The notes beneath the pieces are model-generated. The model did not search any database and was not told the origin of the DNA. It saw only the letters and a program-made list of their open reading frames with translations. Shown here piece by piece: positions 22,340 to 27,747 of a DNA stretch of 29,413 nucleotides (position 1 is its first letter; each line of letters starts with the position of its first letter). Position numbers and translations under genes: made by a program. Origin of the DNA: Candidatus Neomarinimicrobiota bacterium (GTDB taxonomy: Bacteria > Fidelibacterota > Marinisomatia > Marinisomatales > TCS55); the NCBI GenBank assembly GCA_018651745.1, contig JABIDL010000001.1:1-29413 (forward strand), read 5' to 3'.

Positions 22340-22597
22340 TTAGGGGACGGGGTCGTAACCGCCACTATGAAAAGGGTGACAGCGAGCTATTCGTTGTAAT
22401 ATCAAAAAAGAAGCGGTGGGCAGGGGCTTTGTTTTTAATGCTGTAAGCGCGAAATCGGAACACGAGGGCGCAAAACGGCAATGGCTACCAAGAAGAGGAG
22501 AGAGCCCCTTCTTATATCCAAGAATTAATACTCCTAACAAATATGCTATTCCTCCCAAGAGGAAGCCCTGAACGTTTGATGATTGAATTGGTTTCAA
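22340..22597 (-). CDS. yidD: Membrane protein insertion efficiency factor YidD
   Basis: 85 aa. It has an N-terminal hydrophobic helix ([26 protein letters not shown]) and then the family signature [15 protein letters not shown] and the C-terminal [14 protein letters not shown]. YidD is a small membrane-associated protein that helps YidC-dependent insertion. The ATG overlaps the rpmH TGA by 4 nt and the stop is 3 nt before yidC. In most bacteria rnpA sits between rpmH and yidD; here there is no room for it. Confidence 0.93.
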
Positions 22598-22728
22598 GCG
22601 CTCAGCTTCTTCCGTCCCTTTTTTCTTCTCTTGGCGATAACCGCTCTGCCGCCAACAGTAGACATTCGTTCTCGAAAGCCGTGTTTGTTTTTTCTCTTAC
22701 GCTTACTAGGCTGATAAGGTCTTTTCAT
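22594..22728 (-). CDS. rpmH: 50S ribosomal protein L34
   Basis: Translated directly from the sequence: ATG at 22728 to TGA at 22594, 44 aa, very basic. It begins [18 protein letters not shown] and contains [20 protein letters not shown], the unmistakable L34 pattern (K-R-T/P-x-Q-P-S-x-x-K-R...GF-x-x-R-M-x-T-x-x-G-R-x-V-L/I). It is the first gene of the minus-strand run toward surA and is divergent from dnaA, with 165 nt between the start codons, which is the common arrangement near bacterial origins. Confidence 0.97.
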
Positions 22729-24258: not shown

Positions 24259-24756
24259 TTATTTGTGCCGATCTAGTATAGAATTAGAATATTCGCGTAA
24301 AGCAAGCAACCCAATAATAATAAATATCGCTTTATAAAATTTTTCGTGAACAATGGTAAGCGTTGCCAGTACATACGATCCCTTAAAAATTAATACGCCT
24401 ACAATTGGAAACAGAATCAACAAGATCCCGTGATAAACGCACATCGTCAAAATGAATTGGTGTTTACGGCTAATGATAAACAAGGTAAGCGGAAGAAGAA
24501 AAAACCCTCCAAATGGAAGGTCAAAACGAATCTTCGGAAAATCCAACGGCACCAGGAAAAGCTCATCTTGGGCAACACTAACGTTTATATTGTTATATTT
24601 AAGGGAATATTTTACAACCGCGGGGGCGAGGACATTTTGAACTAAATCAACCTGTGTAGGACGAATTACGCCCATATATAAAATTGAAAATAGGCTCAGA
24701 CCGAGGATGGTCCGACGCCAGAAAGCAAACTGGGCTGTTCGCTGACGATTGTCCAT
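24259..24756 (-). CDS. Small multi-spanning membrane protein, putative exosortase accessory (unrecognised)
   Basis: 165 aa from ATG at 24756 (or 168 from ATG at 24765). It shows hydrophobic segments at about 15-31, 82-97, 100-124 and 138-153, with a roughly 50-residue extracytoplasmic loop after the first segment and a short basic/acidic tail (SNSILDRHK). I do not recognise the family. Its start lies inside the end of the exosortase gene in another frame (overlap 61-70 nt), which implies translational coupling and a shared job. In Bacteroidota some exosortases have small membrane partner genes directly downstream; the analogy is inference. The stop abuts the dnaA stop. Confidence 0.6.
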   Translation of the reverse strand: MDNRQRTAQFAFWRRTILGLSLFSILYMGVIRPTQVDLVQNVLAPAVVKYSLKYNNINVSVAQDELFLVPLDFPKIRFDLPFGGFFLLPLTLFIISRKHQFILTMCVYHGILLILFPIVGVLIFKGSYVLATLTIVHEKFYKAIFIIIGLLALREYSNSILDRHK

Positions 24757-25247
24757 AAATACCATAAGGGTAAAACTACGGGATAGAAAACAACATAAGA
24801 ACTGTAAATATGGGCGACTTCCCATGTATTTGGCAAGTAATAAGACCAAAGAGCAAATCCGGCGATACGAAGAACATTTGCAATAAATAACAGACCTATT
24901 CCACCGCAAACAAACATTAACATTTTTTGCTTAGGTCCGGGGTAGGCGATAATAAAACCACAGTACAGCCCAATTAATTCTAATCCATTGCAACCGTTTT
25001 GAATTTCAACACCACTAGATCCCGGTAGTCCAACAAACCGCCCCATTGATTCTACCGCCCACCCTAAAACCGATAAAAGACCCGCAGCCAAAGAAACGCC
25101 GGAATAGCTTAAAAATGTGTCCAATCGTCCATCGGGAAGAAGAACAAATGTATATAATAACTGCCAACCGGCATACACGCCACCCGCCTTAAGCAAGAAT
25201 CGAGTTAGCGGGGAAAGGTTGAAAAAATTACTTTTTATGTTTATCAC
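24696..25247 (-). CDS. Exosortase/archaeosortase family transpeptidase
   Basis: 183 aa from a GTG at 25247, hydrophobic with about five or six membrane segments. The catalytic set of the family is visible: Cys86 in EIQNGCNGLELIGLY (the N-G-C-x-G motif), Arg127 in IANVLRIAGF, and His146 in WEVAHIYSSYVVFYPVVLPLW. Exosortases cut C-terminal PEP-CTERM-like sorting tails of exported proteins at the outer face of the inner membrane and pass them on. It overlaps the 58-aa putative substrate gene by 20 nt upstream and the unknown membrane protein by 61-70 nt downstream. It is compact compared with XrtA/EpsH and resembles the small exosortases of Bacteroidota. No EPS gene cluster is nearby. Confidence 0.85.
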   Translation of the reverse strand: MINIKSNFFNLSPLTRFLLKAGGVYAGWQLLYTFVLLPDGRLDTFLSYSGVSLAAGLLSVLGWAVESMGRFVGLPGSSGVEIQNGCNGLELIGLYCGFIIAYPGPKQKMLMFVCGGIGLLFIANVLRIAGFALWSYYLPNTWEVAHIYSSYVVFYPVVLPLWYLWTIVSEQPSLLSGVGPSSV

Positions 25248-25404
25248 GCAACTTCTTCACCGCCCACGCACCTCCAGCAGCCGCCAAAAACCCAAGCCCG
25301 CCAATGGGCGCTTGATTCGGATCAGACGGAAAACTCGGTTGAGCAGTGATAAGACTAATGAGTGGTAATACAACTGCTATGATTTTTGTAATCTGTGTCT
25401 GCAT
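25228..25404 (-). CDS. 58-aa signal-peptide plus sorting-tail protein, putative exosortase substrate
   Basis: ATG at 25404, with an AAGGA ribosome site 7 nt upstream (25412-25416). Residues 1-21 are a signal peptide (basic-poor start, hydrophobic VVLPLISLITA, cut after A21 likely). A 12-residue proline-rich segment QPSFPSDPNQAP follows, then I-G-G, a short transmembrane stretch (GLGFLAAAGGAWAV, about 36-49) and a basic tail KKLRDKHKK. A short Pro motif, a membrane span and Arg/Lys at the end is the architecture of C-terminal exosortase sorting signals; it recalls the short PID-CTERM-type proteins of Bacteroidota. The gene overlaps the exosortase start by 20 nt. Longer in-frame starts upstream run through palindromic repeat DNA and are unlikely. 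Confidence 0.75.
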   Translation of the reverse strand: MQTQITKIIAVVLPLISLITAQPSFPSDPNQAPIGGLGFLAAAGGAWAVKKLRDKHKK

Positions 25405-25438
25405 GGTTTTTTCCTTATTTACTATTGGAATAATTAAG

Positions 25439-25469
25439 CTTTGCGGAAGTTTTTTTATCTTCCGCGAAG
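25439..25469. repeat. CTTTGCGGAAG hairpin repeat, copy 1
   Basis: CTTTGCGGAAG (25439-25449), a 9-nt T-rich loop, and CTTCCGCGAAG (25459-25469) form an 11-bp stem with one G-U pair. It lies between the lamin-tail protein gene and the 58-aa sorting-tail gene. Confidence 0.75.
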
Positions 25470-25515
25470 TTGCTTTTAGGAAACGGATAAATGGATGCTT
25501 GAAACATACAATAAT

Positions 25516-25544
25516 CTTTGCGGAAGTTTTTAACTTTCGCAAAG
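25516..25544. repeat. CTTTGCGGAAG hairpin repeat, copy 2
   Basis: CTTTGCGGAAGTT (25516-25528), a 3-nt loop and AACTTTCGCAAAG (25532-25544) give a 13-bp stem with one wobble. It lies 29 nt after the stop of the lamin-tail protein gene and could stop transcription, but no clear U-run follows on the minus strand. Confidence 0.75.
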
Positions 25545-25572
25545 AAGTAAGCATCAGCAATCCAATACTCCA

Positions 25573-27681
25573 TCATTTGATAAATGTTATTTTTTGATTA
25601 AATGTTTTTTCTCCTGCTTTCATTTGAACCATGTAAATCCCGGAAGATATGTTTACTGGATTCCATTTTATTTTATGTGTCCCCGGTTGCATCTGTTCGT
25701 TGATAAGCGTTTCCACCAATTGACCATTGATGTTGAAAACCCGCATTTGTAGGGAATGCATTATTGCATCCTCTACTGCGGGAACATCAAATCGTATGGC
25801 GGCGCTCGGATTAAATGGATTCGGATAAACCGGGTGAAGTTCAAACGCTGTTGGAACCACGCCTGTATCCACACTCTGGGTTAAGGTGTTTATAGAAAGA
25901 GACAAAACCGGGGACCCAACCATGGGATAGCTATTGACGCCGGAAGATCCGTAAACAACAGAACCTTTTTCTTGGGTAAGAAAACTATATTCATCACTAT
26001 CTGCCAAATGAACCGTCTCTTGGGTTTCTGTGTTGGTTACGGTAAAACTGAGACCGGTTGGAACATTGCTTAAATCCCACGTTAGGGTTACTTCTTCTAC
26101 TTCTGTCTCAAATATGTCGCCCAATACATTAAGCGACAGTATATCCATATCAATTACTGTTGTACCCGTTAGATCTAGTGGAAGGTTGTTAACGGCAAGC
26201 GCACTGCCATCGTCGGCAAAGGTCGTTCCCACCAATCTTGGGGTCATATCTAAAGGCATGAGTTTATGGGCATCATAGTTATCCATTCCTACATCGCCCC
26301 CCTCATTGAAAGAAAGATAAAACGTTTGAGTTTTTGTCGCTGATGTTGCCGTGAAAGTTGCGCTGTAGGTTTGAGCGGTTCTATAAAAAGAGCCTGAAGA
26401 ATTAGATTTGTCCGCCGTGGCAATCGTTAAAGACCCCGAACCGCCCGAGCCTTTTACCCAAAATCCTTGATAGGGCGCAATTAGTCCGTCTGTTAAGGAA
26501 CCCGCCGAACCGTTCCAGGTTATATAGGCAGAGGTTGCATCGTCCCACACATAGCACGATGTTGTAACGGCAGCTTGGGTTACATCATCCCAATCAATAG
26601 TCTGTGCATAGGGATTTCCCGCAAGTTCCCACGCAGCATCAGCGATGGAACCGGAACTTGGCACGGTGGCACTACTGCTGTTCTCTGTTCCACTGACACT
26701 TAAAGTTGCGGGTAAATCATCTGTACCATCATTGTCTGTATCAGCAAACACATACACCAAAAATCCTTGTCCCGCTGTAAGGCTGGATCCACCACCAGAC
26801 CCTGTTATATCGCTCAAGGCAGACCAGCTCGACCCATCGTAAGTCCACACATTGGCATCTCCGCTGGTGACGTCTGCGCTTGTCATCCCTTGGGTCCAAA
26901 GTTCAGAAAGCAAATCGCTGTAAATTTGGCCGGCCACTGGGCTGCTCATCATGCGGAAACCGGAATTGCCGGAAATGGTAACACTTCGATACCCATCCCA
27001 CGAGCCAGGGTCAAAACCGTTATCTGTAAATGCAGTAGTAGTGGCAACAAGGGAATTACCAGCATTTTGATCAACCCCAGCAAGCCAGGTTTCGCTATCG
27101 CTGAAACAGTTCCAGTCGGAAGAGCTAGCAGTTGCGCCACTAGCCGATGTTGCCGTCGACACCCGCTCTGCGCGACCATCTTCAAATTCGTGCCATTTTC
27201 CACTTCCATCTTCTCCAACAACACCAAACATATCAACAATGTCATAGGTGTTTGCATCGGTGTGAGAAAATGTTTGTCCCGCCGCCTCTGTGACTATGGC
27301 ATGATTATCATCTCCATTTGAATCGGCGGGTCCGCCGGCTGAAACATCTACAACGGTCGTCGCCCCAGCGCTAAAGGTTGAATTAAGCGTTGTATTATTT
27401 ACAGCAAAAATTAGAAATTCTCCCGCCGCCAGCGAATAACTACTTAAGTTAATATTTGCTGTAGCTCCAGCGTTTGTGTTTGTCCATCTTATGATATAAT
27501 AATTTGTAAGCGTAACTGATGAGGCCCCCGAATTATGAATTTCAATATATCTAGCAGACGAATTATCGTTTGGGTCTGCAATTTCAGTAATAATTATATC
27601 GCCCCACCCAAAGCTTAAAATTCCCAATATACCTAAATAACGAATTGATTTAACTAAATTATTTGCTTTGAGCCTTATCAT
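25573..27681 (-). CDS. Secreted lamin-tail-domain protein with T9SS-type C-terminal sorting domain
   Basis: 702 aa from ATG at 27681, chosen because it puts a signal peptide (KSIRYLGILGILSFGWG) at the N-terminus; a start 45 nt upstream would bury it. A lamin-tail (LTD) domain follows: DIIITEIADPNDNSSARYIEI, near 27-47, with the typical E-I-x-N and SLAAGEFLIF parts. The middle (about 225-440) has two related beta-rich units (FRMMSSPVAGQ and WELAGNPYAQTIDWDD...APYQGFWVK) and an acidic DTDNDGTDDLP loop that may bind calcium. The last 90 residues start HPVYPNPFNPSAAIRFDV and end GIYMVQMKAGEKTFNQKITFIK, the T9SS type A sorting domain. It is likely a cell-surface or released protein; its ligand is unknown. 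Confidence 0.88.
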   Translation of the reverse strand: MIRLKANNLVKSIRYLGILGILSFGWGDIIITEIADPNDNSSARYIEIHNSGASSVTLTNYYIIRWTNTNAGATANINLSSYSLAAGEFLIFAVNNTTLNSTFSAGATTVVDVSAGGPADSNGDDNHAIVTEAAGQTFSHTDANTYDIVDMFGVVGEDGSGKWHEFEDGRAERVSTATSASGATASSSDWNCFSDSETWLAGVDQNAGNSLVATTTAFTDNGFDPGSWDGYRSVTISGNSGFRMMSSPVAGQIYSDLLSELWTQGMTSADVTSGDANVWTYDGSSWSALSDITGSGGGSSLTAGQGFLVYVFADTDNDGTDDLPATLSVSGTENSSSATVPSSGSIADAAWELAGNPYAQTIDWDDVTQAAVTTSCYVWDDATSAYITWNGSAGSLTDGLIAPYQGFWVKGSGGSGSLTIATADKSNSSGSFYRTAQTYSATFTATSATKTQTFYLSFNEGGDVGMDNYDAHKLMPLDMTPRLVGTTFADDGSALAVNNLPLDLTGTTVIDMDILSLNVLGDIFETEVEEVTLTWDLSNVPTGLSFTVTNTETQETVHLADSDEYSFLTQEKGSVVYGSSGVNSYPMVGSPVLSLSINTLTQSVDTGVVPTAFELHPVYPNPFNPSAAIRFDVPAVEDAIMHSLQMRVFNINGQLVETLINEQMQPGTHKIKWNPVNISSGIYMVQMKAGEKTFNQKITFIK

Positions 27682-27747
27682 AATACTATGGCAACCAATA
27701 TACGCCTTAAAATCTTTTTTAGTCAAGAAAAGTCTTCGCGCATCGGT

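Follow-up and report, generated by a model that had tools for sequence, protein, structure and literature searches.

A divergent XrtX-type exosortase locus in Marinimicrobia with a mini-protein as its likely substrate and genetic ties to type IX secretion cargo

Introduction

PEP-CTERM/EpsH systems, which join a tripartite sorting tail (motif, membrane span and basic end) to a membrane enzyme with Cys, Arg and His residues, often have twenty or more substrates. Smaller arrangements have also been described. In the Bacteroidota, the XrtX/PID-CTERM system is covered by the models NF046081 (exosortase X), NF046080 (the PID_CTERM tail) and NF046082 (the XrtX-associated membrane protein), and our literature search found no report mentioning PID-CTERM. 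In Flavobacteria, the small exosortase XrtF (TIGR04128) is encoded with an overlapping small membrane protein downstream (TIGR04127). Deletions of xrtF, of its partner and of the type IX secretion (T9SS) gene porZ share a colonisation and biofilm phenotype in F. johnsoniae (PMC10936215), a result that can serve here only as an analogy, because XrtF and XrtX belong to different branches; the targets of XrtF were unknown as of 2025 (PMC12188702). For rhombosortase and its GlyGly-CTERM targets, enzyme and target are encoded side by side when targets are few (PMC3237569).

Here we analyse a window of 29,413 nt, the whole stretch of DNA under study, from a Marinimicrobia genome. A preliminary description, made from the sequence, had seen in it a self-contained three-gene exosortase unit with one dedicated substrate. 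We find that enzyme and tail resemble exosortase X and PID-CTERM, that the substrate candidate occurs in few copies, and that its gene is linked to genes for T9SS cargo.

Results

Layout of the trio

The three overlapping reading frames lie as the preliminary description had drawn them, all on the minus strand: the mini-protein gene at 25228..25404 (58 aa, MQTQITKIIAVVLPLISLITAQPSFPSDPNQAPIGGLGFLAAAGGAWAVKKLRDKHKK), the exosortase gene at 24696..25247 (183 aa, GTG start) and the gene of a small membrane protein, here called the third protein, at 24259..24756 (165 aa, MDN..., with R-P and PFG motifs). The overlap is 20 nt between mini-protein and exosortase frames and 61 or 70 nt between exosortase and third gene, depending on whether the latter begins at 24756 or at an alternative start (24765-24259, MVFMDN...). 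These frames are not due to chance, because relatives keep them and, in most cases, a similar overlap of exosortase and third gene; there is no overlap in two genomes (G036 and G065), whose third gene is found some 2 kb further downstream. At two loci (L053 and L054) the frame downstream of the exosortase, of about 475 aa, starts with MDNxxRR like the third protein and is then unrelated, and may have taken the place of the third gene. When the list of open reading frames was read by eye, no polysaccharide genes were recognised among those of the window, as had been said before. Elsewhere, at 22340-22728, rpmH overlaps yidD directly with no rnpA seen between them; rnpA usually sits between these two genes.

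The enzyme is a divergent member of the XrtX branch

Membership of the exosortase/archaeosortase superfamily is indicated by matches to TIGR04178 (52.4 bits; cut-off 23) and PF09721 (43.1 bits; cut-off 25.7) together with the conserved Cys, Arg and His. The residues concerned, C86, R127 and H146, had been picked out from the single sequence and proved invariant across 12 aligned relatives. Among subtype models the best was exosortase X (NF046081, 147.3 bits, under its cut-off of 170), and the others scored far lower (XrtF 48.6 bits, XrtY 42.3 bits). A maximum-likelihood tree was built with 26 Marinimicrobia exosortases, 28 Bacteroidota XrtX, one long outlier and 16 other Bacteroidota exosortases. 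The 26 Marinimicrobia sequences form a single clade (support 100/99), and a branch with support 98/90 unites them with the 28 XrtX and the outlier and leaves the other 16 outside, which places the enzyme within the XrtX clade; the forks inside this branch are weakly supported. No solved structures related to the exosortase by sequence were found.

The preliminary description had counted a match to a named subtype against its own reading, and this objection holds in part, because enzyme and tail fit a named kind, exosortase X and PID-CTERM, with the enzyme staying under the exosortase X cut-off. Judged by sequence, the trio is thus a divergent Marinimicrobia branch of the known XrtX/PID-CTERM kind and not a new system, and we regard it as very likely that the enzyme is a divergent XrtX-type exosortase with the mini-protein as substrate.

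A mini-protein present in few copies

The mini-protein consists of a signal peptide ending in ITA/Q, a stretch of about 12 residues rich in Pro, the APIGG motif, a hydrophobic span and a basic tail, and the short mature part before the tail is conserved as FP..P.QAPIGG in a 17-row alignment. It passes the NCBIfam PID_CTERM model NF046080 (30.3 bits; cut-off 26) with a match that starts only after the PID motif, and the Pro-Ile-Asp signature itself is absent: PIGG, PINGL or PISGL stands in 17/17 aligned mini-proteins, and the one in the window has PIGG, not PIDGG. Since most Marinimicrobia mini-proteins score below the cut-off of this model, routine annotation likely misses them.

The idea of one dedicated substrate had to be given up, as the same genome encodes a second mini-protein (G000:C40:44616-44786, or 1501-1674 of locus L002) with 29.8 bits against NF046080. 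The two genes share 90% DNA identity that is confined to the gene itself, as if it had been copied on its own, and the second lies downstream of a gene for a 1521-aa protein with a T9SS sorting domain and upstream of groES/groEL. Sorting tails in this genome number exactly two in searches that used the mini-protein profile and, with hits admitted up to E 10, the PID model, and relatives have one to three mini-proteins per genome; dozens of tails, which would have told against the earlier reading, were not found. As such, this is a few-substrate system, with neither strictly one substrate nor dozens.

Co-occurrence across the order

In a survey of 121 genomes of the order, the exosortase was detected in 27, the mini-protein in 32 and the third protein in 25. 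The mini-protein accompanies the exosortase in 27/27 genomes (Fisher p 3e-22) and the third protein is found in 25/27 exosortase genomes versus 0/94 others (p 7e-24), p values that overstate independence because the genomes are related; the co-occurrence of the three genes that had been anticipated is thereby borne out. The third protein went undetected in two exosortase genomes, G006 and G027. Five genomes have a mini-protein call and no detected exosortase: three of them (G009, G094 and G112, 81-87% complete) hold good mini-protein matches, and the calls in G106 (69% complete) and G031 (81%) rest on weak matches, that in G031 being probably false. In the genus to which the window's genome belongs, there are two relatives (93% and 85% complete) with none of the parts.

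The third protein represents an unnamed membrane family

Neither the third protein nor its 14 aligned relatives gave a match worth naming against Pfam and NCBIfam, the protein itself giving none at all, in line with the earlier suggestion of a new component. Pfam families were discarded as candidates in the absence of matches; NF046082 was discarded as there was no model match and a negative profile comparison (with only 4 control sequences), and TIGR04127, the XrtF partner, as there was no match and no detected profile link (with a small comparison set). In the AlphaFold model (pLDDT 88), a long helix at the N-terminus is joined by a short beta segment, a helix of 13 residues at the conserved PFG motif and two more long helices, which makes the earlier count of four spans slightly generous. 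A fold search with this model returned nothing below Foldseek E 0.8, and the matches were middling helical bundles only (best Z 5.9), which are uninformative.

At 18/30 Bacteroidota XrtX loci an unnamed membrane protein of 150-170 aa with a similar PFG motif is encoded directly downstream; the NF046082 type is present at 3/30, and neither type was seen in the flank read at the remaining 9/30. Profile comparison joined the Marinimicrobia third family to this unnamed Bacteroidota family (97.2%, E 3.9e-11, 148 columns), with shuffled and reversed controls reaching at most 0.3%. At 14/14 more distant Bacteroidota exosortase loci (L326-L339) a small membrane-protein frame overlaps or abuts the 3' end of the enzyme gene, and TIGR04127 was matched by the partners at three distinct distant loci tested fully and at one locus of another exosortase branch; a small exosortase with a small membrane partner downstream therefore looks like a general rule. 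Two of the TIGR04127-matching partners among L326-L339 also match NF046082 weakly, hinting that exosortase partners may form one superfamily. We favour the view that the third protein serves the exosortase as an accessory subunit.

Linkage of mini-proteins to T9SS cargo genes

Upstream of the mini-protein gene, on the same minus strand, lies the gene of a 717-aa secreted protein at 25573..27726 (its start codon is uncertain, with an ATG at 27681 also possible). The role of this gene, like the second mini-protein, had escaped the preliminary description. This partner ends in a T9SS type A sorting domain at 25588-25830 (TIGR04183, 33.7 bits, cut-off 23; PF18962, 43.8 bits, cut-off 27), and further carries a Lamin Tail Domain (PF00932, 34.4 bits, cut-off 34.3) and, by profile match, a conserved 360-aa module at about 25882-26967. 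The arrangement recurs: once contig-edge cases and fragments are set aside, 41 intact mini-protein genes have upstream sequence, and in 39 of these the preceding gene runs in the same direction, stops 8-253 nt short of the mini-protein gene and encodes a C-terminal T9SS type A sorting domain; the exceptions are in G097 (contig C32) and G116. The 39 include mini-proteins far from the enzyme, namely the second copy in this genome and the pairs of genus g4 that lie apart from the exosortase. With 53 T9SS sorting-domain matches in this genome, chance adjacency would come to only a few percent per mini-protein. The trio is thus not self-contained as first thought, because the mini-protein belongs with the upstream cargo gene and in g4 the pair sits away from the exosortase.

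The 360-aa module (FRMMSSPVSG...LWTQGMTGAD...) is common to most partners, where it directly precedes the sorting domain. This genome has a single copy, that of the 717-aa neighbour, the 1521-aa partner of the second mini-protein being without it, and across the survey the module is present in 25/27 exosortase genomes versus 10/94 others, five of those ten also having a mini-protein match. The module stands without exosortase or mini-protein in G004, G011, G024, G030 and G095 (for example at L268, L271 and L272). Its structure model is poor (pLDDT 52), and no solved structures related to it by sequence were found. In two Rhodothermaceae genomes, 4/8 PID-CTERM genes directly follow a T9SS sorting-domain gene, the domain being model-confirmed for three, and the tie may therefore extend to Bacteroidota.

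Between cargo and mini-protein genes, at 25405-25572, two strong hairpins were predicted (RNA fold z -5.5), with copies of CTTTGCGGAAGTTTTT at 25439 and 25516; they are possibly a terminator or attenuator. The corresponding gap is only 8-60 nt in most relatives.

Discussion

The working unit is probably composed of T9SS cargo, mini-protein, XrtX-like enzyme and helper, and we put the probability of the whole model, a version of XrtX/PID-CTERM with mini-substrates, an accessory protein and T9SS cargo, at about 60%. In this model Sec would export the 58-aa mini-protein, signal peptidase would cut it so as to leave the conserved Gln at the new N-terminus, and its C-terminal span would keep it in the inner membrane. 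The enzyme, through C86, R127 and H146, would then cut near PIGG and probably transfer what is left, a peptide of some 12-15 residues, onto an acceptor that might be a lipid or a glycan, with the small membrane protein as an accessory subunit that the enzyme requires. Finally, the mini-protein or its conjugate might work with the T9SS-exported surface protein encoded upstream, for example in anchoring, assembly or capping. What the sequences themselves show is the class and triad of the enzyme, the tail type, the joint occurrence of the genes and the linkage of the mini-protein to T9SS cargo; reaction and purpose are both proposed here by analogy with other exosortases and with archaeosortases (PMC7157517; PMC12188702).

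The mini-protein might instead be a peptide precursor from which a protease frees a short Pro-rich signal or antimicrobial, its placement beside T9SS genes reflecting shared expression of surface functions. A conserved mature part of only about 12 residues and the move of one copy alone to a second locus would suit such a role, but the tail belongs to a known type of C-terminal sorting signal, the tie is specific to T9SS sorting-domain genes, many with one common module, and genes for a peptide exporter or receptor were not seen next to the loci that were read; we consider this explanation unlikely. Slightly less likely still is that the exosortase acts mainly on some unrelated protein that went unrecognised here and that the mini-protein is a minor or vestigial target travelling along. 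Tails diverged past the PID model would indeed be missed, and in g4 the mini-protein lies away from the enzyme; against this, the two tails in the genome were the only ones seen even with permissive searches, and the mini-protein is present wherever the exosortase was detected and absent from most other genomes.

That cargo and mini-protein stand together as an inherited gene order without function also seems improbable, a shade more so than the preceding alternative. All genomes are from one order and the adjacencies must therefore be partly inherited, yet they occur at different chromosomal sites, with or without an exosortase nearby, the partners are unrelated at the second copy here and at L218, and the adjacency recurs in Rhodothermaceae. 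We think it likely that the link between cargo and mini-protein is functionally meaningful. A classical PEP-CTERM/polysaccharide system with many overlooked substrates is very improbable, since beyond the match to the exosortase core family there are only two tails, no PEP motif and no polysaccharide genes recognised alongside.

The very small likely substrate, its near-perfect co-occurrence with the enzyme and its tie to T9SS cargo together offer a testable link between exosortases and type IX secretion. Our search found nothing joining T9SS with XrtX and, on Marinimicrobia and type IX secretion, nothing that looked relevant; with no earlier report found, the T9SS link of this XrtX-type system points to an unrecognised connection between pathways. 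As a tentative extension, which we hold to be possible but rather less than even, an XrtX-type exosortase with its own subunit might make a conjugated mini-peptide that anchors, caps or assembles a specific T9SS surface protein; if true, exosortase and T9SS would act on one product in a coupled pathway. In addition, most of the Bacteroidota XrtX genes sampled are accompanied by a member of an unnamed membrane-protein family that the analysis defines and that is likely a missing subunit.

Comparison with known systems

With PEP-CTERM/EpsH systems the locus has in common the tripartite tail and the Cys/Arg/His membrane enzyme, and it differs in lacking a PEP motif and any recognised polysaccharide cluster nearby, and in having one to three substrates in place of many. 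The adjacency rule of rhombosortase and GlyGly-CTERM also fits here, although the enzyme is unrelated and, unlike a dedicated rhombosortase, it has more than a single target. The XrtF system likewise combines a small exosortase with an overlapping small membrane protein downstream, but the enzyme here reaches only 48.6 bits against the TIGR04128 cut-off of 90, which places it outside XrtF, and no similarity could be detected between the third protein and TIGR04127.

XrtX/PID-CTERM of the Bacteroidota is the nearest exosortase family by both score and tree. The enzyme here is under the NF046081 cut-off, PIGG replaces PIDGG and, unlike in XrtX systems with NF046082, the third protein is of the unnamed family that also stands beside 18/30 Bacteroidota XrtX genes. 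The substrates are mini-proteins, whereas the PID-CTERM open frames of the two Rhodothermaceae genomes span about 150-320 aa. On the other hand, the tail scores above the PID_CTERM cut-off, both systems have the gene of a small membrane protein directly after that of the enzyme, and at two Bacteroidota loci (L189 and L213) a mini PID-CTERM gene adjoins XrtX, just as it does here.
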